From Acidobacteriaceae bacterium (lineage in GTDB: Bacteria; Acidobacteriota; Terriglobia; Terriglobales; Acidobacteriaceae), in contig PLHN01000487.1 of NCBI GenBank assembly GCA_003139975.1, forward strand, positions 336 to 13,555: a stretch of DNA of 13,220 nucleotides, read 5' to 3'. Shown here piece by piece: positions 1,204 through 12,731 of the stretch. Numbering within the stretch: the stretch's first letter is position 1; every line of letters starts with the position of its first letter. The position numbers and the translations under genes are program-made. Below the pieces are notes generated by a model that saw nothing but the letters and a program-made list of their open reading frames with translations, had not been told where the DNA came from and made no database searches.

Positions 1204-3276
1204 CTACTGGTGATCCCTCGGTACCGTCTCCTCCCACGTTTTGTTCTTCACCAGCTTGCCGTCCTGATACAGCTCGCGCACGTATTTGTAGTAGAAATTC
1301 TTGGCGTCACTAGTCAGCGTCAAGTGGCCGCGCCACGTTAGCGTGCGGTCTTTCAGAGCCATCGCGATCTCGGCTTCGCCGTGAACCGAACTAACATCCG
1401 GATGGTTGTCGTCAGCCTCATAAGTCAGCGCCTCAAGATCCGTTTCCTTTCCCCACGGATAAGTCTCTTCCGATTTCCCATTCCAAATTACTTTTGTCTT
1501 CCCGGCTAACTCGTCGCGCTCGGTCTTCCATTCGCCGGGCCAGGGGAAACCTGCGGCCTGCATGTCCTTGCGTTCTTCCATCGGTTCGGGCGCGGAAAAC
1601 TGCGGCAGGGCATACCTCGAAGGCGGCACCAGCGGCAGCACGAGGCGCGAACCATTGCTCGTGCCAAGCTGCAGCGTGGTCGTCATCGCATACGGAGTCG
1701 GCCACGCCATCGGCCACAAAGCATTCGAAACCGCCAGCCGGATGCGATGGCCTCTCGGGAAAGTCCATGTCGTAAAGTGCATCTCGATGTCGAGCGCGTA
1801 AGCCTTGTTGGGTTCGAGGTCCTTTGGGTCGGAAGCAGAATCGCGCTGCGCGCCGCTCAACCCTGCGCCCGTCACCTGCGTGACCGTGCCGTCGGGAGCA
1901 ACGTCGGAAAGGCGCGCGAACCAATCCGCCAGCGGAGCCGTCGCAATCGCCCGCCGTATCGCGTGCGGCCGCCCCATAAGAGTGAGCTCTTCATTGAGCG
2001 GAGCCGAATCGTACGTGAGGCTGAAGGCGTCAGTGGGCCGCTGATCCGGCAGCAACTCGCCCCACCAGAAGCCGGCCTCGACTCCGATGGAGGGTACATA
2101 GCGCAGCACGTTCTCGCCCGGCTTGGCCGGATCGGTGGCGAGTGCGTGCCCGTCGTAAAGATAGAGCGTGCTGTCGCTGATGCCCTCCGGCGGCCACTTC
2201 GGCTCGGTGCGCCACGTTCCCGGCACTTCCTTGAGTTGAGGATCAGGCGCATGCCACGACCGCATATAGATGGCAAGTGCGCCTCCGTCCATGATTCCGC
2301 TGTTGCGGTTCTTCAGCCAGTAGTCCCACCAGCGGACCGCCTCATCGCGCCACTCGATCCGGGGGCCGAAGTCGGCATCGTTGGGAAAGTTGTGGTTCCA
2401 CGGGCCGATGATCGCCTTGAGCGGCGCTTTGACTTGCTCAAACATGTGCGGGATGGAATCGCGGTAGCCATCGAGCAACCCGCCGATCAAAAAGCACGGA
2501 ATCTTGATGTCGCTGAGGGGGTGGACGGGAGCGTGCCAGAAATCGCCGTCACGCTGATGCTTCAGATAGAGCAAAGACCAAGGCGCGGATTCGAAGCGCG
2601 GGCCGAGGACTTTGTCGTCGAGCGTGTAGTCGGGCGCGCCGGTCATCGCTGGCGCAAGGTCCATGTTGAGTTCGAACTCGTCGAAGTGCATCAGGCCGTC
2701 GACGTAGTGGATATCGTCGTGAAACAAGGCGTCGGTGGCGTCGACCGCGAGAATCGCCTTGAGCGCGGGCGGATGGCGCATCGCCATCTGGATGGAATTG
2801 AAACCGCCCCAGGAGATTCCGAACATTCCGACTTTGCCGTTCGACCAAGTCTGACTGGCGAGCCAGGCGATAACCTGCTCGCAGTCGAGTTGCTCCTGCT
2901 GCGAGTATTCGCGGTCAGTGGGCACGCCTTCGCTCGCGCCAAAGCCGCGGATGTCCACGCGCGCGCTGACGTATCCGCGGGCTGCGAAATAGGAGTGAAT
3001 GGGGTAGTCTCGGGCAGCCGTGGCGTCGTCTTTACGATAAGGAAGGTATTCCAGCAGGGCAGGGAATTTTTCGCCCGGCTTGGCGTTGTCGGGCATATAG
3101 AGCGTGGCCGAAAGCCGGACGCCGTCCGGCATCGGAATCCACTCCTGAACCATACGGACCGAGTACTTGGCGCGTGGGACGGGGGATGTCGCCGGGGCAG
3201 CGTACAGGTTTGAGGAAAGGGCAGCTAGGATGATGAAGGCAAAGGATGTGCGTGCAAATCTCGAGATGAAAAGCAT
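1204..3276 (-). CDS. Secreted CocE/NonD family alpha/beta hydrolase (X-Pro dipeptidyl-peptidase S15-like)
   Basis: This 690-residue protein has a signal peptide (MLFISRFART, hydrophobic core to about 24, cleavage near YAA at 27), so it is probably periplasmic or exported. Residues about 40-330 are the PepX/CocE catalytic domain. The nucleophile motif is GISWGG with Ser155. Asp269 in GGLLDGYRD and His295 in GPWNH fit the family's Ser-Asp-His triad spacing. The remainder (about 340-600) matches the position of the C-terminal jelly-roll domain of the family, with a further C-terminal extension. Members hydrolyse ester or amide bonds, including X-Pro dipeptides, acylated beta-lactams and cocaine esters. 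The substrate here cannot be told from sequence. The ATG at 3276 has no Shine-Dalgarno sequence but sits 8 bases after a TATGAT. A 488-codon open frame antisense to this gene is a shadow. Confidence 0.93.
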   Translation of the reverse strand: MLFISRFARTSFAFIILAALSSNLYAAPATSPVPRAKYSVRMVQEWIPMPDGVRLSATLYMPDNAKPGEKFPALLEYLPYRKDDATAARDYPIHSYFAARGYVSARVDIRGFGASEGVPTDREYSQQEQLDCEQVIAWLASQTWSNGKVGMFGISWGGFNSIQMAMRHPPALKAILAVDATDALFHDDIHYVDGLMHFDEFELNMDLAPAMTGAPDYTLDDKVLGPRFESAPWSLLYLKHQRDGDFWHAPVHPLSDIKIPCFLIGGLLDGYRDSIPHMFEQVKAPLKAIIGPWNHNFPNDADFGPRIEWRDEAVRWWDYWLKNRNSGIMDGGALAIYMRSWHAPDPQLKEVPGTWRTEPKWPPEGISDSTLYLYDGHALATDPAKPGENVLRYVPSIGVEAGFWWGELLPDQRPTDAFSLTYDSAPLNEELTLMGRPHAIRRAIATAPLADWFARLSDVAPDGTVTQVTGAGLSGAQRDSASDPKDLEPNKAYALDIEMHFTTWTFPRGHRIRLAVSNALWPMAWPTPYAMTTTLQLGTSNGSRLVLPLVPPSRYALPQFSAPEPMEERKDMQAAGFPWPGEWKTERDELAGKTKVIWNGKSEETYPWGKETDLEALTYEADDNHPDVSSVHGEAEIAMALKDRTLTWRGHLTLTSDAKNFYYKYVRELYQDGKLVKNKTWEETVPRDHQ

Positions 3277-3386: not shown

Positions 3387-3533
3387 ATGCCCGGCCCGCC
3401 GCCAGGTGGCGGCATGTGGGGTCGTGGGGTTGGGCCGGGCAATGCTATGTACTTCCCGTTGCTTCTATTAGTGCTGTATTTGTACATGGCAGCTTGGGCG
3501 GGTGACTGTGATGCGGGTCACGTATCGGTGTGA
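3387..3533 (+). CDS. Doubtful small membrane protein ORF (48 aa)
   Basis: An ATG at 3387 opens a 48-residue frame that starts with a Pro/Gly-rich stretch (MPGPPPGGGMWGRG). It continues into a strongly hydrophobic segment, about residues 21-38 (YFPLLLLVLYLYMAAWAG), which could span the membrane once, and ends at TGA 3531-3533. The first ATG has no good ribosome-binding site. An internal ATG at 3414 has AGGTGG a few bases upstream and would give 39 residues. Codons such as TTA, CTA and TTG are unlike the neighbouring genes. The reading frame also overlaps a GC hairpin and a regulator-like palindrome. It may be only promoter DNA. No homologue is recognised. Confidence 0.22.
   Translation: MPGPPPGGGMWGRGVGPGNAMYFPLLLLVLYLYMAAWAGDCDAGHVSV
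3388..3441 (+). repeat. Nested GC-rich inverted repeats
   Basis: The outer arms TGCCCGGCCC (3388-3397) and GGGCCGGGCA (3432-3441) pair perfectly over 10 bp. Inside, GCCGCC (3398-3403) and GGCGGC (3408-3413) form a second stem with an AGGT loop. No T-run follows, so a normal terminator is unlikely. Confidence 0.5.
3507..3522 (+). promoter_or_regulatory. CRP/FNR-like palindrome, distal site
   Basis: TGTGA-N6-TCACG, with core GTGAT-gcgg-GTCAC at 3508-3521. It lies 46 bases upstream of a second copy of the same motif, upstream of the ferredoxin gene. The half-sites match the generic CRP/FNR-family recognition pattern. The regulator itself is not in the window. Confidence 0.45.
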
Positions 3534-4032: not shown

Positions 4033-5106
4033 ATGAATATCGTCAAAGCCACAAGAAAGTACGAGGAATGGCTCGGGCAGCATCTGCAGATTCTGGAAAA
4101 GGACCTGCAGTTGAAACACGAGCGGATGGCGCAATCCGGTTTTTCCTTTCTGCGGGCCACATTCTATCGCTGGTTGCAACTGTGGGAAGACGTCTGTGCG
4201 GATCTGCAGAAGGCTCCGCTAATCCTCTCCGTCGGCGACCTCCACGTGGAAAATTTCGGCACTTGGCGCGACACCGACGGCAGGCTGGTTTGGGGAATCA
4301 ACGACTTTGATGAAGCATGCTTGTATCCCTACACGCTCGATCTGGTGAGGCTGGCGGCAAGCGCCGTGCTGGCTGCACGTGAAAGCCGGCTCACGATGAA
4401 ACCTGACGAGGCGGCCGACGCGATCGCAGTTGGTTATCAGAAAAGGCTCCAGCAAGGTGGTCGCCCGTTCGTTCTGGAAGAGGAGCATACGTGGCTGCGC
4501 GCGATTGCCGAGAGCAAGCTCCGGGACCCGGTCGTGTTCTGGCAGAAAATGGAGCGGCTCCCGGCGATCCGCGGGGAAGTTCCGGAGAGCGCACGCGAGG
4601 CGTTGGAACATCTGCTGCCGGAGCCGGGGATCGAGTACCGGCTGACCCATCGGATAGCAGGATTGGGAAGCCTTGGGCGCGTCCGCATCGTGGCGATCGC
4701 GGAGTGGAAGGGCGGACTCGTCGCGCGGGAAGCGAAGGCGCTGGCGCCTTCTGCCGCCCACTGGGCCGATGCGCACGCACCTCGCGAAATCCTGTATGGC
4801 GCAATCTTGCGTCGTTCCGTGCGCTGTCCGGACCCGTATGTACAACTCCGCGGGCACTGGATCGTGCGCCGCCTGTCGCCGCATTGTTCGCGCATCGAAC
4901 TGGACGCGCTCGGCACAGCCCGGGGAGAGTGCCGCCTGCTGGAAGCGATGGGTCAGGAAACGGCCAACATTCACGCGGGAACGGAAGAGAAACGCCGCGC
5001 CATTCTCAAGGACCTGCGCACGCGCAAAGCAGGTTGGCTGGTCAAAGCCGCCGAGGCCATGGCCGAAAAATTAGACAAGGACTGGCGCGCTTGGAAGGAG
5101 CGCTGA
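4033..5106 (+). CDS. DUF2252 family protein, kinase-like fold
   Basis: This 357-residue cytoplasmic protein shows the DUF2252 signature. GDLHVENFG (Gly68-Gly76) resembles the catalytic loop of aminoglycoside/choline phosphotransferases, with Asp69, His71 and Asn74. NDFDE follows, with Asp91 and Asp93 at the place of the metal-binding DFD. The order and spacing of these motifs suggest a phosphotransferase-like active site, but no substrate is established for the family. No signal peptide or membrane segment is present. The ATG at 4033 is chosen because a strong promoter sits directly upstream and the frame starts cleanly there. The C-terminus is Lys/Arg/Glu-rich and helical. The gene appears monocistronic and converges on the zinc-ribbon pair. 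Confidence 0.9.
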   Translation: MNIVKATRKYEEWLGQHLQILEKDLQLKHERMAQSGFSFLRATFYRWLQLWEDVCADLQKAPLILSVGDLHVENFGTWRDTDGRLVWGINDFDEACLYPYTLDLVRLAASAVLAARESRLTMKPDEAADAIAVGYQKRLQQGGRPFVLEEEHTWLRAIAESKLRDPVVFWQKMERLPAIRGEVPESAREALEHLLPEPGIEYRLTHRIAGLGSLGRVRIVAIAEWKGGLVAREAKALAPSAAHWADAHAPREILYGAILRRSVRCPDPYVQLRGHWIVRRLSPHCSRIELDALGTARGECRLLEAMGQETANIHAGTEEKRRAILKDLRTRKAGWLVKAAEAMAEKLDKDWRAWKER

Positions 5107-6251: not shown

Positions 6252-6785
6252 TCAGCTGACTGACTCCAACGCGCGCGTCTGGCATGACGAGCACAACGTC
6301 GACTCCTTCAGGTCAATCCATTCCACCGCATGCGACGGCGCCATGGCGCAGGAGAAGTCGTCGCAATGCGTCAGATCGAAGGTGTGACCGACTTCGTGCA
6401 CCGCTTCCTTAACCAGGCGCTCAGCGAGAATCCCCGGATCATGGGGCAGCCCGTAAAACTGCTGCGTGAGCCTGTGAAACGAAACTACGGCACAGGGGCC
6501 GCCCATCTGCGCCTCGCCGAAAACAAACGTCAAAATGGGAATGTAGAGGTCGACGGCGGTGACGCCAAGTACACGCCACGCGCCATCGGCCGCGTACCGC
6601 TGCATAGCCTGGAGTAGCTCCGAGGAATGGTACTGCCCACGCTCCGGGTGATAGGCAAACTGCGGATCGAAGCCCCGTTCCAGAATGCGGCACGGGACGC
6701 GGAAGGAATCCGCGAGCGCGGGCGCTACAGTCCGGAGCAGCCGCGCGTCGAAGTCTCCGATCGGCAGCAGGTCGAGCATCTTCAT
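6252..6785 (-). CDS. Archaemetzincin-like zinc metalloprotease
   Basis: This 177-residue protein has the archaemetzincin signature. His130, Glu131 and His134 lie in HEVGH, followed by His140-Cys141, Cys146, Met148, and Cys165/Cys168. The upstream DLYIPILTFVFGEAQ is also typical. The family binds one catalytic zinc through three histidines and a structural zinc through four cysteines, and acts as an aminopeptidase-type metalloprotease. Two oddities are visible. The metzincin glycine after HExxHxx is Asp137 (HTFDLTHC). The spacing from Met148 to the CxxC is 16 residues, where I recall 17. The start at 6785 overlaps the regulator stop as ATGA, so the gene is translationally coupled. No signal peptide is present, so it is cytoplasmic. 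Its partnership with a two-component system is unexplained. Confidence 0.88.
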   Translation of the reverse strand: MKMLDLLPIGDFDARLLRTVAPALADSFRVPCRILERGFDPQFAYHPERGQYHSSELLQAMQRYAADGAWRVLGVTAVDLYIPILTFVFGEAQMGGPCAVVSFHRLTQQFYGLPHDPGILAERLVKEAVHEVGHTFDLTHCDDFSCAMAPSHAVEWIDLKESTLCSSCQTRALESVS

Positions 6786-7630
6786 CGCGTCTCGAGGGGG
6801 CGGCTCCAACCGTACTTTTTCAGCTTGTGATGCAACGTCACGCGGTCGATCTCAAGGGTTTCCGCGGCCTTGGTCTGGTTCCAACCGCATTGTTCAAGCA
6901 CCCGCATGATGTGCGCTTTTTCCATGTCCTCGAGCGATTTCGGACTTCCATTGGGTGTGCTGCCATTGTGCGCCTTAAAAGCGAAATCCTGCTCGCGGAT
7001 CTCCGGTTCCTGCGCGACCACCATGGCCCGCTCCACTGCATTTTCGAGTTCGCGGATGTTCCCCGGCCAAGGCTGCTGCTGCAGTAAATCCATGGCAACC
7101 GGGTTGACGCGGTTGATCTTCTTGTTCATCTGCAGCGAGAACTTGCGCACGAAGTGGTTGACCAGCGATGGGATGTCTTCCCGCCGCTCGCGAAGCGCAG
7201 GAAGCTCAATACGAAAGACATTGAGCCGATAGAAAAGATCGGGCCGGAATTTACCTTCCTCGATCAGTTGCTCGAGGTTTTTATTGGTAGCAGCCACACA
7301 GCGAAAGTCAACCTTGATTTGCTGCGTGCTCCCCACACGGACGATCTCGTGCTCCTGCAGCACGCGCAGAAGATCCGTCTGGGTCTTCAGGCTGATGTCC
7401 CCGATCTCGTCGAGAAAAACCGTCCCACCCTCGGCAATTTCGAACTTGCCTTTCTTGCGGTATTGCGCGCCGGTGAAAGCTCCTTTTTCGTGGCCAAAGA
7501 GTTCGCTTTCCAGCAGTGTTTCGGTGAGTGCGCCGCAATGGATCACGACCAGAGGATGAAACCGGCGCGGGCTGGCGTGGTGGATGGCCCGGGTCACCAG
7601 TTCTTTCCCGGTTCCACTTTCGCCCGTCAC
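6782..7630 (-). CDS. AAA+ and DNA-binding half of an NtrC-type sigma-54 regulator (split gene)
   Basis: This open frame continues, in the same frame, the receiver-domain gene upstream after a TAA at 7661-7663. From a GTG at 7630 it carries Walker A GESGTGKE (residues 3-10), the sigma-54-contacting GAFTGA loop (50-55), Walker B GGTVFLDEIGD (68-78) and an FRPDLFYRL segment (128-136). A Fis-type helix-turn-helix sits at the C-terminus (about 237-275). With the upstream half it would make a normal 455-codon bacterial enhancer-binding protein. On its own it lacks the strand leading into Walker A, so independent function is doubtful. The GTG has no good ribosome-binding site. Its stop overlaps the archaemetzincin start. 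Target promoters are not visible in this window. Confidence 0.85.
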   Translation of the reverse strand: MTGESGTGKELVTRAIHHASPRRFHPLVVIHCGALTETLLESELFGHEKGAFTGAQYRKKGKFEIAEGGTVFLDEIGDISLKTQTDLLRVLQEHEIVRVGSTQQIKVDFRCVAATNKNLEQLIEEGKFRPDLFYRLNVFRIELPALRERREDIPSLVNHFVRKFSLQMNKKINRVNPVAMDLLQQQPWPGNIRELENAVERAMVVAQEPEIREQDFAFKAHNGSTPNGSPKSLEDMEKAHIMRVLEQCGWNQTKAAETLEIDRVTLHHKLKKYGWSRPLETR

Positions 7631-7660
7631 AAGAACGGTCGCGTCGGTAGGCCCGACCGT

Positions 7661-7663
7661 TTA
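7661..7663 (-). other. In-frame TAA interrupting the sigma-54 response regulator
   Basis: Reading the minus strand, ...KVYHAI is followed by TAA and then TVGPTDATVLVTGESGTGKE without any frame change. Family members have a sense codon here. Confidence 0.9.
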
Positions 7664-8149
7664 GATCGCGTGATAGACCTTCTGCATGGCTTCGCTTTCG
7701 CCGATGATCTCCTCGGGGCGGGCGACTTCGGCAACGGTTTCGCGCAGCCGCACATTTTCTTCTTCCGTCCGCTTATGCGCCAGCGCCTTCTTGACCAGGT
7801 GCGCGATTTCATCCGGATCGAGCGGTTTGGTCACGTAATCGTACGCGCCATTCTTGAGAGCGGTCACGGCGGTTTCGACCGATGCGTACCCCGTCATCAT
7901 GATCACGATGAGATCGGGGTTGATCTCGTGCACCCGGCGCTGCAGCTCGATGCCGTCCGTGCCGCGCATTTTGATGTCGCACAGCACCGCGTCCCACGAC
8001 TTTTCGGCCAGCTTCGTCAACGCGCTGCTGGCATCCTCGGCGGTTCCGACTTCATATCCTTCTTCGTGGAACCATTTGGCAAGCGAATCGCGCACGCTCA
8101 GTTCGTCGTCCACGATCAGCAGCTTTGCTTGTTGCGTCAAGGCGTTCAC
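7661..8149 (-). CDS. Receiver-domain half of the NtrC-type response regulator (split gene)
   Basis: A complete CheY-like receiver: acidic pair Asp14-Asp15, phospho-acceptor Asp58 in LCDIKM, Thr86 and Lys108. It is followed by the linker and the first residues of the AAA+ domain (EEIIGESEAMQKVYHAI), then a TAA. The product would be a 162-residue receiver with a linker and no output domain. The start is a GTG at 8149 whose bases overlap the kinase stop as GTGA, so kinase and regulator are translationally coupled and form a cognate pair. The stop needs only one base change from a sense codon such as CAA. It may be a real nonsense mutation or a sequence or assembly error. Confidence 0.88.
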   Translation of the reverse strand: MNALTQQAKLLIVDDELSVRDSLAKWFHEEGYEVGTAEDASSALTKLAEKSWDAVLCDIKMRGTDGIELQRRVHEINPDLIVIMMTGYASVETAVTALKNGAYDYVTKPLDPDEIAHLVKKALAHKRTEEENVRLRETVAEVARPEEIIGESEAMQKVYHAI

Positions 8150-9822
8150 CTCGTCTTTGTTTCCGTGCCCGCGAGGGAAAGCTCAGGCGTTGAGCCAGAG
8201 CGGCCGGGCACAGGCAATGTGATCGTTACAGTGGTTCCTTTTCCAACTTCGGATTCGATCGAAATCTTGCCGCTGTGCCGTTCCACGATGCCCTGGCTGA
8301 CGGCCAGCCCGAGACCGGTTCCATGGTTCAAGTCTTTCGTGGTGTAGAACGGCTCGAAAATCTTGGGCAGGATTTCGGGGGGAATTCCGGCGCCATCGTC
8401 GCGAACCGACAGGGCAGCCTGGCTGCCGTCTTCCGATAAACGGGATTCGACCCAGAGGTTGCCACCTCGCGGCATGGCGTCGGCGGCGTTGACGATCACG
8501 GCCAGCAGCACCTGCTCAATCTTGGAAGCGTCGCCTTGCAGCCGGGGTAGTCCCTCAGCCAGCCTGGGATGCACCTCGATTCCGGCGTTTTCCATATTGT
8601 GGCGCATCAGCAGCAAACACTGCTCTGCAACTCGATTTATATCGGTCGGCTGTACATTCATGGGCGCCTGGTGCGAGAAGGTGAGAAGATTCTTCACCAG
8701 TTCCCCGCAGCGGCGGCTTTCGGACGAGATCAAGTCCAGGCACTGCACCGCCTCCTGCTTTTTCTCATTGACTACCTGGCCGCTGTCGACCCATTTCTTC
8801 AGGAGTTTGGAATACGTAAGAATGCCGGAGAGCGGATTGTTGATCTCGTGGGCGACCACGGCGGCCATTTTCCCCACCGACGCCATCGTCTCGCTGTGCA
8901 AAACCTGATCGTGAGCGCGCTGCAGTTCGCCGGTTTTCTCCTGAACCCGTTCCTCCAGATTGCGCCCCCAATTGACCAACATTTCATTGGCGCTCCGCAG
9001 CTGCAAGCTCATCGAGTTGAACGATCCAGCCAGGTCCCCAATCTCGTCGTTGGAGGCCAACTCGATCTGGTAACCGAGCGCGCCCCCGCTCAGCTTGTGG
9101 GTTCCGGCCTGCAGTCGCTTCAGCGGCCGTCCCACCACCCGTCGGATGAACAACCAACTCAAAAAGGCAATCCAGAAGATGGCCAACACGTCGCAGGCAA
9201 TGATTCGCCACGACACTTGCGCCAATTGCTGATCGGTGCGGGCGAGAGAGAGATGAGTGTCGAGCACGCCTAGAATCTGCTGACTCGCTGGGTGCTCGTG
9301 GCAGGCTGCGTTCGAGCACTGGGGCTGATTTTCGATGGGCGTAATGATGGCCAGTACTCGTCCCTCCCCGCCACGGTAAACGCGGAAGCGGTCGGGACGG
9401 TTCAGCCGTGCCAGTGTCTGCCCGTGGGCGTGGCAGGCGTAGCAGGCTTCGGCATCCTTATCCAGCGTGCGGTTCACTTCCGAACGATCGGTCGAGTAGC
9501 TGATGTGGCCTTCCCGGTCAAAAACCCGCACCCGCACCACGCCCGGTTCGCTGGCCATCGCCGACATAGCGCGGTGCAGTCCTTCGCTATCGTTGCGCAA
9601 CATGTAGTCCGATGTGTTGCGTTGGATGACGTCGCTGATGCGCTCGGCGCTTAGCAGCGTCGCCGCCTCCAGATCCTGGCGCTGCAACCGGATCGTGAGG
9701 TATCCGAGAAGCGCAAAAATCACCAGCATGGCCCCCAGCAGCAAAACAATGAGCTTGGTTCCAAGCCCACAGCGAATGCGGTCCAGCAGACCAATTGCCG
9801 GTTTTTTTTCAGTCTCCTGCAT
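8146..9822 (-). CDS. Sensor histidine kinase with periplasmic haem-c-like motifs
   Basis: This 558-residue membrane kinase has a first membrane helix at about 24-46 and a periplasmic domain at about 47-206. A second helix lies at about 207-228, then HAMP (about 228-282) and a coiled coil. The HisKA domain has phospho-acceptor His325 in VVAHEINNP. The ATPase domain has Asn445 (N box), DDGAGI 475-480, FEPFYTTK 489-496 and GTGLGLA 501-507. The periplasmic part contains CYACH (Cys127, Cys130, His131) and CSNAACH (Cys169, Cys174, His175). These match or extend the c-type haem attachment pattern, so redox, gas or electron-flow sensing is plausible. It phosphorylates the adjacent NtrC-type regulator by inference. 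Its start overlaps the HybB-like gene by 14 bases. Confidence 0.93.
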   Translation of the reverse strand: MQETEKKPAIGLLDRIRCGLGTKLIVLLLGAMLVIFALLGYLTIRLQRQDLEAATLLSAERISDVIQRNTSDYMLRNDSEGLHRAMSAMASEPGVVRVRVFDREGHISYSTDRSEVNRTLDKDAEACYACHAHGQTLARLNRPDRFRVYRGGEGRVLAIITPIENQPQCSNAACHEHPASQQILGVLDTHLSLARTDQQLAQVSWRIIACDVLAIFWIAFLSWLFIRRVVGRPLKRLQAGTHKLSGGALGYQIELASNDEIGDLAGSFNSMSLQLRSANEMLVNWGRNLEERVQEKTGELQRAHDQVLHSETMASVGKMAAVVAHEINNPLSGILTYSKLLKKWVDSGQVVNEKKQEAVQCLDLISSESRRCGELVKNLLTFSHQAPMNVQPTDINRVAEQCLLLMRHNMENAGIEVHPRLAEGLPRLQGDASKIEQVLLAVIVNAADAMPRGGNLWVESRLSEDGSQAALSVRDDGAGIPPEILPKIFEPFYTTKDLNHGTGLGLAVSQGIVERHSGKISIESEVGKGTTVTITLPVPGRSGSTPELSLAGTETKTR

Positions 9823-10981
9823 GGCTCAAAACCCCGGTTCCGACACTAATGTGTTCCGGTCGTTCGAGCTTGTGTCCAGTTTCCGTCTCAAAAATCGGCA
9901 GATACCTCACCGCCAATCCGAACAGTGCGAAGCCCATCGCAACAATCATCAGCGTGATGGAGAACTCGGTCCACTTCGGCATGTAGTGATGTCCGACGTA
10001 AGTCTCAAAGCCGATGAGGGCAATGTTCAGCCGGTTGGTGATGAATCCCAGCACCGTAAAGATCGACGCCAGATACAGCCACTGTGGTGACAACCGCACC
10101 TTCTTAAAGCTCAACATCGTGATCGGAATCAGGTAGGTCAGCGTCAGTTCGAGCCACAAAAAGTAGGACTCGTAGCTCGGTTTAAAGATCTGCCCGATCA
10201 ACCCGCGATGAAAGAAGTCCTCGAGGTGCAACAGCAGATTGACCCAGAGAGCAATCAGCAATGCGCCACCCAGTGTGACCAGGACCGGAAGCTCCAGTTG
10301 TCGCCCGAACGCTTTCGCGCTCTGCGTCGACTCGAAGATCGTCATCGCCAGACCTACCGCCACGGCCGAAGCGAAGAAAAAGAACGGCAGCGCCGGCGTG
10401 TACCAGAACGGATGCAGCTTACTCGGCATGATCAGATACAACGATCCGAGCGAACTCTGGTGGAGCGTGGAGAGCAGGATGCCTCCCACAATCAGCACCG
10501 GATAGATCTTGTTGATGTACTTGATCGGAGTCTTCCAGTTCAGCCGCTCGAACACGTTGGGCAGAAATTCGAAGAACAGGACCGTGGTGTAGAACATCAC
10601 ACACATGCCCACCTCGAACATCACCGAGTGCAGGTTCCGGTAGATCATCTGGTGCCAGATGAACCAGGGGCGGCCCAAGTCAAACAACAGTCCAACAATA
10701 AAGAGCACGTAACCTAGGAACGCCGTCAGCACAGCCGGGCGCACCACCGGGTGCAGGCGCTCGACGTTGAACAGATAGACCGCGCCCACCATGCAGAAGC
10801 CGCCCGCCGCCAGCATCACACCGCACAGGCAGTCGAACCCGATCCAGAGCCCCCAAGGAAACTGGTCCGTCATGTTGGAAACCGCGCCCAGGCCCCGGAA
10901 ATAGCGAATAAACGAGGAATACAGGCCCAGGACCATGATCACAATGAAAATAACTCTCCACAATGTCAGCTTGAATTTCAT
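9809..10981 (-). CDS. HybB/NrfD-like integral membrane protein
   Basis: A 390-residue protein with about nine or ten hydrophobic helices. Conserved-looking segments include FPWGLWIGFDCLCGVMLAAG, HPVVRPAVLTAFLGYV, LLFDLGRPW and HSVMFEVGMC. These resemble HybB, the quinone-interacting membrane subunit of hydrogenase-2-type and related NrfD/PsrC complexes. Its role would be to pass electrons between the quinone pool and the iron-sulfur partner encoded just upstream. The ATG at 10981 is chosen over an upstream in-frame start. It overlaps the stop of the ferredoxin-like gene as ATGA and has GGGGG seven bases before it. No catalytic subunit gene lies in the window, so the substrate of the complex is unknown. 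No haem-binding role is assumed. Confidence 0.92.
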   Translation of the reverse strand: MKFKLTLWRVIFIVIMVLGLYSSFIRYFRGLGAVSNMTDQFPWGLWIGFDCLCGVMLAAGGFCMVGAVYLFNVERLHPVVRPAVLTAFLGYVLFIVGLLFDLGRPWFIWHQMIYRNLHSVMFEVGMCVMFYTTVLFFEFLPNVFERLNWKTPIKYINKIYPVLIVGGILLSTLHQSSLGSLYLIMPSKLHPFWYTPALPFFFFASAVAVGLAMTIFESTQSAKAFGRQLELPVLVTLGGALLIALWVNLLLHLEDFFHRGLIGQIFKPSYESYFLWLELTLTYLIPITMLSFKKVRLSPQWLYLASIFTVLGFITNRLNIALIGFETYVGHHYMPKWTEFSITLMIVAMGFALFGLAVRYLPIFETETGHKLERPEHISVGTGVLSHAGD

Positions 10982-11745
10982 TGCTTGCCCCCGTTTTTGT
11001 GTAATGCTTCCGCCTCGGCGACTTCGTCGCGCCGATGCGAGACCCAATAGATTCCTCCCAATACCAACGTCCAGACCGGAATGAAGTCAGGGATTCTCTC
11101 CATCACGCGCCCCGTGTATTCCGGCATTGGCGTCTCGCCGATTTTCGCCGAGGCCGGATACCCGTAGTCCTCCGCCTTTGCCGCTGCAATAATAAGGATC
11201 GACGTTCCCCCAACCTCATGTAGACCGTAAATACGAGGCAGGTAACCGGATGGATTCTGCCGGATGCGGTCTTGTGCTTCCACCACCAGGTCGTCGCGCT
11301 CCCCAAACTTCGTCGCCCCAGTTGGACAAATCTCGGCACATGCCGTGTGCTTCCCCGCAACTACCCGATCCGGGCACATAACGCACTTGCGCACTCGCGG
11401 ATTCAGGGCACCCCACTCGTATTTCGGTTGGTTGAACGGGCACGCCACCATGCAGTAGCGGCATCCGATGCACTTCCAGACGTCATACACGACTGGCCCT
11501 TCTTTGGTTTTATGCAGGGCTCCCACGGGGCAAACCGAGGCGCACGCAGGTTCTTTGCAGTGCATGCACAGCCGCCGCATGAATTTGTCTTCTTTGGTGA
11601 GAACGACCGTGTATTTGTGTGCCGATTGCACCGACTCCGCCGCTACCGTGTCGTCGTAGGGCAGTTTGTTCTGTTGCGCACATGCGCCTTCGCACTGTTT
11701 GCAACCGATGCACATCGTTGCGTCATACAGGATGGCCTTACTCAT
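10978..11745 (-). CDS. HybA/DmsB-like four-cluster iron-sulfur protein
   Basis: This 255-residue protein has sixteen cysteines in four groups, for four [4Fe-4S] clusters: Cys12/15/18/22, 60/63/68/72, 92/95/98/102 and 121/124/136/140. YGLHEVGGTSILII (173-186) is typical of HybA. A membrane helix at about 219-236 (IPVWTLVLGGIYWV) with a basic tail would anchor it next to the HybB-like protein. The ATG at 11745 has GGAG about 9 bases upstream and starts directly with MSKAILYDATMCIGC. There is no Tat or Sec signal, although HybA proteins are normally exported. The clusters may therefore face the cytoplasm, or export may need a partner. This is the first gene of the overlapping five-gene cluster. 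Confidence 0.93.
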   Translation of the reverse strand: MSKAILYDATMCIGCKQCEGACAQQNKLPYDDTVAAESVQSAHKYTVVLTKEDKFMRRLCMHCKEPACASVCPVGALHKTKEGPVVYDVWKCIGCRYCMVACPFNQPKYEWGALNPRVRKCVMCPDRVVAGKHTACAEICPTGATKFGERDDLVVEAQDRIRQNPSGYLPRIYGLHEVGGTSILIIAAAKAEDYGYPASAKIGETPMPEYTGRVMERIPDFIPVWTLVLGGIYWVSHRRDEVAEAEALHKNGGKQ

Positions 11746-11862: not shown

Positions 11863-11907
11863 GATTAAACAAAAGCCCGGGTTCCACGCGTTTCGCAGGA
11901 CCCGGGC
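11863..11907 (-). terminator. Intrinsic terminator between cytochrome c and the HybA operon
   Basis: On the minus strand GCCCGGGT (11907-11900) pairs with ACCCGGGC (11882-11875) over 8 bp, with further pairing possible past a bulge, and is followed by TTTTGTTTAA. It lies about 180 bases after the cytochrome stop and before the HybA-like gene. The HybA operon should therefore have its own promoter between about 11746 and 11862. I could not identify that promoter. The rest of the 345-base gap holds no convincing gene. Confidence 0.75.
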
Positions 11908-12090: not shown

Positions 12091-12405
12091 TTACTTCTGC
12101 AGCGTGCGAACGAAGGTCACGATCGCTTTCGCGTCGTCGGCCGACAGACCCTTTACCGGGGCTGGGTGCTTCGCAGTGCCACTGATCGCGCTCACCAGAT
12201 CGGCATCGGACTTCGCCTTTACTTCAGGACCATTCAGCGCGGGGATCTTGGCTGCGGGCTTTCCGGCTCCGTCTGCACCATGACACGCAGCGCATTTCGC
12301 TTTGTACAGCGCGCCGCCGTCATCGGCCCATGACAGACTCGGAATCAGAATGAACAGAGCAACCGCGATCGTCAGTACCAGCACCGCGATTTTGGTGGTT
12401 TTCAT
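12091..12405 (-). CDS. Small secreted monohaem cytochrome c
   Basis: This 104-residue protein has a signal peptide (KTTK, hydrophobic core 7-22, SWA|DD cleavage after residue 27) and one CAACH haem site (Cys38, Cys41, His42), as in class I cytochromes c. The fold is supported by LYKAKCAACHG at the start and the C-terminal helix AKAIVTFVRTL. The distal axial ligand is normally a methionine in a KMP-like loop. Here the mature protein has no methionine and the place reads AKHPAPVKGLS, so His80 may be the sixth ligand. It would shuttle electrons in the periplasm, possibly for the HybAB-like complex or the haem kinase nearby. GAGAGG lies before the ATG. It is separated from the downstream operon by a terminator. 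Confidence 0.93.
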   Translation of the reverse strand: MKTTKIAVLVLTIAVALFILIPSLSWADDGGALYKAKCAACHGADGAGKPAAKIPALNGPEVKAKSDADLVSAISGTAKHPAPVKGLSADDAKAIVTFVRTLQK

Positions 12406-12550: not shown

Positions 12551-12594
12551 CAAGTTTCATCATTGTGGCGAAATGCTGCGGTGACGGTAGTCAC
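12551..12594 (-). promoter_or_regulatory. CRP/FNR-like palindrome upstream of cytochrome c
   Basis: A perfect palindrome with half-sites GTGAC and GTCAC around a 4-base spacer lies at 12581-12594. On the minus strand AACTTG (12556-12551) follows 24 bases later. In the ferredoxin promoter the same hexamer follows the proximal palindrome by 23 bases. A class II position would place the RNA start near 12546, giving a leader of about 140 bases. Confidence 0.45.
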
Positions 12595-12731
12595 GTCCAA
12601 GCGTGACCCAGATGCGTGTCCCAATGTTCATGGAACACAACCACTTCCGCCTCCACCCATTCTGCCAGTAAGGCTAGCTGCCCAATCGCCAAAACGCTGC
12701 CAAACCCGAAATTCCAGCCCCAGCTGGCCAT
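12591..12731 (-). CDS. Doubtful 46-aa ORF upstream of cytochrome c
   Basis: An ATG at 12731 opens a 46-residue frame rich in Trp, Glu and Val (MASWGWNFGFGS at the start, HEHWDTHLGHAWT at the end). It ends in a TGA that overlaps the palindrome at 12581-12594. The frame extends upstream to 12887, but the longer version runs through the repeat element and looks unnatural. No usable ribosome-binding site is seen, and no family is recognised. Confidence 0.18.
   Translation of the reverse strand: MASWGWNFGFGSVLAIGQLALLAEWVEAEVVVFHEHWDTHLGHAWT

Follow-up and report, generated by a model that had tools for sequence, protein, structure and literature searches.

What might an archaemetzincin, a putative zinc protease of peptidase family M54, be doing in a bacterial operon devoted to electron transfer and signalling? 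The question is raised by a 13,220-nucleotide stretch of DNA from a soil-dwelling Acidobacteriaceae bacterium (hereafter, the window; contig PLHN01000487.1 of assembly GCA_003139975.1, positions 336 to 13,555), which takes up almost the whole of a 13.6-kb contig. The contig belongs to an Acidobacteriota genome (G000) that is 73 % complete and whose relatives bearing names are Terriglobales and Acidobacteriaceae metagenome-assembled genomes (MAGs). Read along the minus strand, the locus encodes a cytochrome c, an iron–sulfur (FeS) protein, an NrfD-family membrane protein, a histidine kinase, an NtrC-type regulator and the archaemetzincin (Table 1). The original prediction took the last five for a single redox module, in which the kinase monitors electron flow and the protease is a co-produced effector. 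Our analysis favors, with a probability of roughly 55 %, a redox-responsive two-component switch with a dedicated archaemetzincin. As judged by sequence comparison, the core of the module is the archaemetzincin together with the sigma-54 regulator.

Table 1. Features of the six-gene locus and its surroundings (window coordinates).
Feature	Position	Strand	Basis
CRP/FNR-type palindrome (GTGA-N6-TCAC) preceding the cytochrome c gene	12580..12595	.	151-199 bp before the cytochrome c start in 14/14 loci scanned
Small monohaem cytochrome c, at the head of the conserved set	12091..12405	-	Pfam PF13442/PF00034; same place in 11/20 same-genus regions (7 others cut by contig ends)
Inverted repeat, rich in G+C, in the gap between the cytochrome c and FeS genes	11875..11907	.	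Read directly from the sequence
FeS subunit, HmcB/HybA-like, no Tat motif, C-terminal hydrophobic stretch	10978..11745	-	Profile scans and motif test
NrfD-family membrane subunit, HmcC/HybB-like	9809..10981	-	PF03916 above cut-off; NCBIfam matches under equivalog cut-offs
Sensor histidine kinase: periplasmic haem c motifs, HAMP, HisKA, HATPase_c	8146..9822	-	Domain scan, alignment, motif count
Kinase haem c motif CX2CH (CYACH), residues 127-131	9430..9444	-	C127, C130 and H131 invariant in 35 rows of alignment A1
Kinase second haem c motif CX4CH (CSNAACH), residues 169-175	9298..9318	-	C169, C174 and H175 invariant in 35 rows of alignment A1
NtrC-type sigma-54 response regulator (REC, AAA+, Fis HTH), interrupted in the assembly	6782..8149	-	Domain scans, comparison of relatives
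In-frame TAA between receiver and AAA+ domains	7661..7663	-	Among 17 relatives read, the codon encodes Glu (15) or Gln (2)
Archaemetzincin (peptidase family M54), HEVGHTFDLTHC with Cys4 motif	6252..6785	-	NF033823, 157.6 bits vs cut-off 145

The five genes from FeS to archaemetzincin are, as predicted, fused by overlaps, of 4, 14, 4 and 4 bases, and the 14-base overlap of the NrfD and kinase genes is kept in all 16 loci, the window included, in which both ends are readable. The conserved set includes one gene more, that of the monohaem cytochrome c. The full six-gene order is present in 11 of 20 fetched same-genus regions (in two of the 11, L032 and L035, the kinase frame is broken); the other nine consist of seven regions cut by contig ends, a diverged cluster with the order kinase–archaemetzincin–regulator (L042) and a spurious match (L044). 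Conservation across distant genera, which had been proposed as a check, was borne out: related gene sets were found in distant Acidobacteriota families and in other phyla, including those of a 'Deltaproteobacteria' MAG and an Archangiaceae MAG, as well as in an Ignavibacteriales genome.

To see which of these genes belong together, the distribution of archaemetzincins was examined. Matches to the archaemetzincin profile NF033823 were found in 128 of 396 Acidobacteriota genomes (56 above the cut-off), and archaemetzincins are present in 84 of 198 genomes of the phylum of the 'Deltaproteobacteria' MAG, in 77 of 117 of the phylum of the Archangiaceae MAG (E ≤ 1e−20) and in 10 of 118 of the phylum of a Nitrospira MAG. 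We considered an archaemetzincin linked if a sigma-54 regulator, with a match reaching past residue 300, was encoded within 600 bp on the same strand, a rule that leaves out L042, where the regulator is cut by the contig end, and L187, where it lies about 1.2 kb away. In a tree of 174 distinct archaemetzincins (197 before same-locus duplicates were merged; quick search, midpoint root, branch support SH-aLRT 98), one branch holds 104 rows, 94 of them regulator-linked, and the other holds 70 rows, none of them linked. Under the same rule, none of the 13 archaemetzincin loci in the phylum of the Nitrospira MAG showed the link, and in three of them (L365-L367) the end of a sigma-54 regulator lies more than 1 kb away. 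As a baseline, a regulator is equally near for only 8 of 443 ordinary open reading frames (ORFs) located more than 4 kb away in such loci, the regulators in this case being taken from ORF clusters rather than from tblastn. Thus, archaemetzincins do occur apart from a two-component pair, an outcome that the original prediction had named as a refutation, as a different branch and as 10 of the 104 members of this one, but 94 of the 104 are tied to it.

The same relationship is seen from the regulator side. Among the matches listed for Acidobacteriota, an archaemetzincin lies within 1.5 kb of 42 of the 45 closest regulators, 54 of the 58 closest and 60 of 81 in total; one pair (G302:C199), counted only in the last figure, depends on a weak archaemetzincin match, and the 21 regulators without such a neighbor include contig-edge cases (e.g. 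G233). In a regulator tree, 82 of the 85 rows of one branch are archaemetzincin-linked, although the sampling is biased because most loci were fetched via their archaemetzincins. The order of the linked genes varies across phyla (regulator–archaemetzincin or kinase–archaemetzincin–regulator), and the ATGA overlap of the two genes is confined to nearer relatives, a gap of about 20-200 bases being found elsewhere. At 21 regulator-linked loci the archaemetzincin stands beside the regulator and neither a kinase with the window's type of sensor nor NrfD was found. Therefore, the constant partner of the archaemetzincin is the regulator or the regulator's output. The idea of five genes forming one unit is not supported in the form given: the FeS/NrfD pair is dispensable for the archaemetzincin–regulator link, and sets of FeS, NrfD and haem-kinase genes also exist without an archaemetzincin. 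One may go further and propose, tentatively and at somewhat under even odds, that the whole multi-phylum branch of archaemetzincins constitutes a dedicated third component of one sigma-54 two-component family, targeting the regulator or a GcvH-like protein induced by it (see below), and that different sensor modules (haem c with NrfD/FeS, or others) have been swapped in ahead of this fixed core.

The regulator of the window was expected to be of NtrC type, and receiver (REC), Sigma54_activat and Fis helix–turn–helix (HTH) domains were indeed found; it is not, however, one open frame, as a TAA codon at residue 163 splits the receiver (162 aa) from the sigma-54/HTH part. A 455-aa protein (P0241; 20 member sequences from 11 contigs) is uninterrupted and identical over the other 454 residues, so intact copies of this regulator exist, and the frame is free of stops in 16 of 17 relatives read. 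The exception, from a same-genus MAG (L028), also has a stop in this linker, but at residue 156, seven codons from that of the window. Among 106 distinct full-length regulator matches, stops before residue 440 were found only in these two. A regulator made as two genes by design seems unlikely because P0241 and 16 of 17 relatives are uninterrupted, and it keeps some room because the only other stop among the 106 falls in the same linker. That two independent errors should fall seven codons from each other would be coincidental, and division of the regulator between its domains may therefore be a genuine tendency.

The predicted haem attachment motifs of the sensor kinase (CYACH and CSNAACH) proved invariant in the alignment of 35 rows (Table 1), and 67 of 73 kinase rows, drawn from several phyla, have two CX2-4CH motifs (matches starting after residue 60 were excluded; two rows are cut short, L051 contributes two rows, and L046 is the same locus as L156). 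Sensors with one or two such motifs in the periplasmic domain have been described (PMC3831638), namely GSU0582 and GSU0935 and the two-motif relatives Gsu0591, Gsu0599, Adeh_2011 and Adeh_3383. The window kinase resembles them in this respect but combines CX2CH with CX4CH, is tied to FeS/NrfD and archaemetzincin genes, and matches the corresponding chemoreceptor sensor family PF21563 only below threshold (22.5 vs cut-off 27; P0187, at 28, is just over). A different c-haem family, of Cache domains, has also been described (PMC12889525). The AlphaFold model of the kinase has a mean predicted local distance difference test (pLDDT) score of 59.5, with values below 50 at residues 121-206, in the sensor region, and in PDB searches with the kinase the best 60 of 81 and the best 60 of 88 matches all start at or after residue 254, none in the haem sensor. 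The rows with two motifs include loci of Calditrichia, Bacteroidetes and Elusimicrobia in which a multihaem cytochrome is encoded between NrfD and the kinase.

A functional connection between this sensor and NrfD is suggested by their co-occurrence. Among 57 regulator-linked loci with longer flanks, NrfD is present in 28 of the 35 with this sensor (defined as a kinase match starting by residue 60 and passing residue 200) and in 1 of the 22 without it (p 1e−8). Of the latter, 21 have another kinase; the single locus in which no kinase was found (L291) is also the sole NrfD case. Four of the 35 sensor loci (L169, L177, L187 and L262) show fewer than two motifs by a script test, and L267, with an NrfD fragment below threshold, was counted as having none. 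Counted by proximity, NrfD lies within 15 kb of at least 41 of 112 archaemetzincin places, against about 0.7 expected, as counted for archaemetzincins with E ≤ 1e−20 among the matches listed and 150 NrfD places among the matches listed. Overall, this sensor is mostly accompanied by NrfD, and the archaemetzincin by the sigma-54 regulator. The proposal that the kinase reads electron flow thus gains from the pairing of sensor type and NrfD, while the identity given to its electron-transfer partners does not stand.

That pair had been labeled HybAB, a likeness that holds only at the level of families. The FeS and NrfD proteins score below the equivalog cut-offs for HybA (183 vs 263 bits) and HybB (290 vs 450), and likewise for HmcB (252 vs 420) and HmcC (293 vs 550), the FeS protein having been scanned with 29 extra upstream codons. 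The FeS subunit starts with MSKAILYDATMCIGC and lacks a twin-arginine translocation (Tat) motif by a simple motif test. The HybAB identity was rejected on the scores. The HmcBC proteins of Desulfovibrio Hmc and the HybAB proteins of hydrogenase 2 are likewise FeS plus NrfD pairs and are the best NCBIfam matches, but the window pair is no more than HmcBC/HybAB-like, and no hydrogenase or multihaem HmcA gene was found among the window ORFs scanned. Two groups can be told apart among the FeS partners of this NrfD family, with and without a Tat motif, a difference that would change the side of the membrane faced: the motif is present in 19 of 38 FeS proteins read and absent in 19 (L168, one of the 19, was misread in this count), the window and ten genus copies being Tat-less. 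A second FeS/NrfD set occurs in the window's genome (G000:C71:1802-6430; L203) with its own regulator and kinase pieces and a gene 38 % identical to the GcvH-like gene discussed next; no archaemetzincin was found within this 6.4-kb contig.

What, then, might the regulator switch on? When all the ORFs of 85 archaemetzincin loci were clustered (those of the window, of four loci from the genus, of 40 Acidobacteriota places selected to spread over genera and of 40 from other phyla), one further recurrent family emerged, GcvH-like proteins, present in 35 of the 85. All five of those scanned match PF01597, the domain of glycine cleavage H proteins. They differ from true H proteins in having an N-terminal membrane segment or a Cys-rich N-terminus, and in the copy that was aligned (L034) the lipoyl Lys is replaced by Gly. 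A sigma-54 −24/−12 match of at least 10/12 precedes 17 of 47 GcvH-like genes vs 9 of 577 other ORFs (Fisher p 7e−15); by the same test it precedes kinase genes in 2 of 58 cases and FeS genes in 2 of 21, but none of the archaemetzincin (60), regulator (52) or NrfD (24) genes. With 33 shuffled consensi, a mean of 0.33 and a maximum of 2 of the 47 GcvH-like genes were hit. Within the genus, 16 of 17 readable GcvH orthologues have a site scoring 8/12 or better 50-63 bp upstream, seen as a conserved block in the alignment; the readable ones are L295-L312 minus L311, which contains Ns, the 33-38 % paralogues L313, L314 and L203 not being counted, and the sole miss, L303, has a different 8/12 match at −32. 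When 41 genomes were searched with the exact genus promoter pattern, all nine matches fell just before GcvH genes, which, as the pattern was drawn from these promoters, demonstrates its rarity elsewhere rather than providing independent proof. Of 19 genomes with the kinase, 18 have an orthologue of at least 70 % identity, as against none of the 22 genomes lacking the kinase; the orthologue of the window's genome is on a separate contig (G000:C362:2437-3108), outside the window. The GcvH-like gene is therefore our predicted target, presumably activated by the regulator. Many GcvH-like proteins (L255-L294) carry one or two N-terminal Cys4 repeats (CxWMxAGxVxxKxC...DCxxC), a possible metal or Fe−S site. 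Two genomes, at L384 and L385, share a one-mismatch promoter-like site, TGGCATCGCGATTGCCTTTC, before the same membrane protein gene, a possible second target; we did not adopt a wider regulon on this basis, as a reversed control pattern gives nine matches at the same stringency and the site may be due to chance.

The sensor operon seems to be under different control. The CRP/FNR-type palindrome listed in Table 1 is accompanied by a second, more distant GTGA-N6-TCAC site in 8 of the 14 loci, and a scan of 13 loci turned up scattered weak matches but no convincing sigma-54 promoter ahead of the operon; the 11/12 sigma-54 site of L025 is located downstream of the archaemetzincin. It is thus probable that the sensor operon, or its cytochrome gene at least, is driven by a regulator of the CRP/FNR family, and the GcvH-like gene by the sigma-54 regulator. 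Two similar palindromes, at 3507 and 3553, precede the window's ferredoxin gene (3598), a hint of a common regulon.

Taken together, these results are consistent with the following scenario. Exchange of electrons among the quinone pool, the NrfD/FeS pair and small cytochromes of c type would set the oxidation state of two c-type haems, presumably attached to the periplasmic domain of the kinase. The kinase would then phosphorylate its NtrC-type partner, which, acting with sigma-54, would turn on a gene transcribed separately and encoding a membrane-anchored GcvH-like protein that lacks the lipoyl lysine. The archaemetzincin, as a zinc protein of the cytoplasm co-produced with the regulator, would act on the output side: through highly specific cleavage, or through binding, it would alter how much of the regulator or of the GcvH-like protein there is, or how active it is. 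The sequences themselves show the conserved gene sets, the haem motifs, the pairing of archaemetzincin and regulator and the sigma-54 sites ahead of the GcvH-like gene; haem attachment, the source of the electrons, phosphotransfer, activation of the GcvH-like gene and the action of the archaemetzincin are proposed from them.

Several observations weigh against this reading. The Tat-less FeS subunit leaves the membrane side of the FeS domain unsure. Sets of FeS, NrfD and haem-kinase genes exist without an archaemetzincin: at six loci (L195, L197-L200 and L208), most of them from a family (f26) that we take to be Geothrix-like, and at loci of distant phyla, they are accompanied by receiver-only regulator matches with no archaemetzincin in the segment, and at L206 and L051 even by a sigma-54-type regulator with no archaemetzincin adjacent. 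The stops in the regulators of the window and of a second genus MAG, sharing one linker, can be explained by errors alone only as a coincidence, and, as mentioned, the operon has no convincing sigma-54 promoter of its own. Because all 27 Acidobacteriota loci have this sensor, the contrast between sensor and NrfD comes only from non-Acidobacteriota loci (6 of 8 vs 1 of 22). On the side of the predicted target, 30 of the 47 GcvH-like genes score under 10/12, the 8/12 threshold used in the genus gives a second match at some loci as well, the kinase occurs without a GcvH orthologue in one genus genome (G017), and Ns break the GcvH promoter in the window's own genome. When one mismatch to the genus pattern is allowed, only 6 of 14 matches are at GcvH genes; since the reversed pattern gives nine in total, the other eight are no more than background. 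Finally, the loci are related by descent, so the p-values overstate their independence.

One alternative turns on cleavage by the archaemetzincin. The window protein belongs to the family by profile (Table 1; Pfam PF07998, 80.8 vs 24.4 bits) and has the HEXXH motif, the third His, the Met-turn and all four Cys residues (HEVGHTFDLTHCDDFSCAM...CSSC). The Gly of HEXXHXXGXXH, called 'strictly conserved' in metzincins (PMC3427221), is Asp in the window protein; in aligned copies of the genus (except the diverged L042) and in some nearby copies it is D, S, N or Q, with HExxH and Cys4 kept, and most other aligned archaemetzincins keep the Gly. The biological importance of archaemetzincins is described as very little known (PMC3427221), and the precedent for cleavage is mixed. 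According to PMC3427221, AmzA of A. fulgidus and M. kandleri had no activity on the substrates tried, and the aminopeptidase activity of human AMZ1 and AMZ2 is cited as still to be confirmed, whereas the archaeal AMZ-tk is reported to be proteolytically active (PMC4681839). CarG of Myxococcus xanthus, an archaemetzincin homologue with the HEXXH Glu replaced by Gln, works in transcription (PMC3427221; see also PMC4374960).

The archaemetzincin might resemble CarG: a zinc protein without proteolytic function, binding the regulator or the transcription machinery as a co-activator or anti-activator. Besides the precedent of CarG and the inactivity of AmzA on the substrates tried, its constant pairing with a transcription regulator and the loss of the metzincin Gly in the window's genus fit such a role. 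The Glu, however, is kept: 93 of the 94 regulator-linked archaemetzincins conform to the pattern HExxH...HCx4CxM, L294 deviating in spacing only, and 71 of the 93 have the Gly. The CarG-like HQxxH rows are found in the branch without regulator neighbors, and the window protein scores 98 bits against a cut-off of 250 for the CarG-like family NF033824. Considering also the activity of AMZ-tk, we regard a purely non-proteolytic role as possible but less likely than not.

The self-monitoring redox module of the original prediction, in which the protease would be a general effector that, for example, clears damaged electron-transfer proteins when the kinase fires, appears improbable. The overlap of the archaemetzincin gene with that of the regulator, the retention of the catalytic residues and the presence of NrfD with most modules bearing this sensor are all compatible with it, but at 21 loci the archaemetzincin is kept with the regulator where neither this sensor nor NrfD was found, and no archaemetzincin gene among 60 is preceded by a sigma-54 match of at least 10/12. 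An ordinary electron-transfer operon with its own two-component system and a functionally unconnected archaemetzincin as passenger, which would agree with the archaemetzincin-free sets and, if they are not errors, with the regulator stops in two genus MAGs, is already strained by the depth of the archaemetzincin–regulator link, which spans several phyla and gene orders and defines one archaemetzincin branch, and is thus very improbable.

The proposed dedicated-archaemetzincin switch is assembled from parts that are known already. Its kinase and REC–AAA+–Fis regulator are those of NtrBC/ZraSR/AtoSC-type systems, to which it adds haem c motifs in the sensor, an archaemetzincin partner and a GcvH-like predicted target. 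With CarG it shares the M54 family, and CarG demonstrates that an archaemetzincin homologue can serve transcription; unlike CarG, the window protein keeps the Glu and adjoins a sigma-54 two-component pair. The original prediction knew of no described system with this content, and we likewise did not find the combination with a fixed archaemetzincin partner and predicted target among the open-licence papers listed by our searches; those listed on archaemetzincins revealed no two-component link in their titles or abstract openings. The association of one archaemetzincin branch with a regulator family, a sensor type and a predicted target offers a concrete place to look for a bacterial substrate or partner of these proteins. 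It also adds a candidate redox-sensing switch to NrfD-type electron transfer, and the gene likely to be switched on can now be named and tested. Outside the module, its neighbors in the window are ordinary, namely genes for a DUF2252 protein (4033-5106) and an S15/CocE-type hydrolase (1204-3276).

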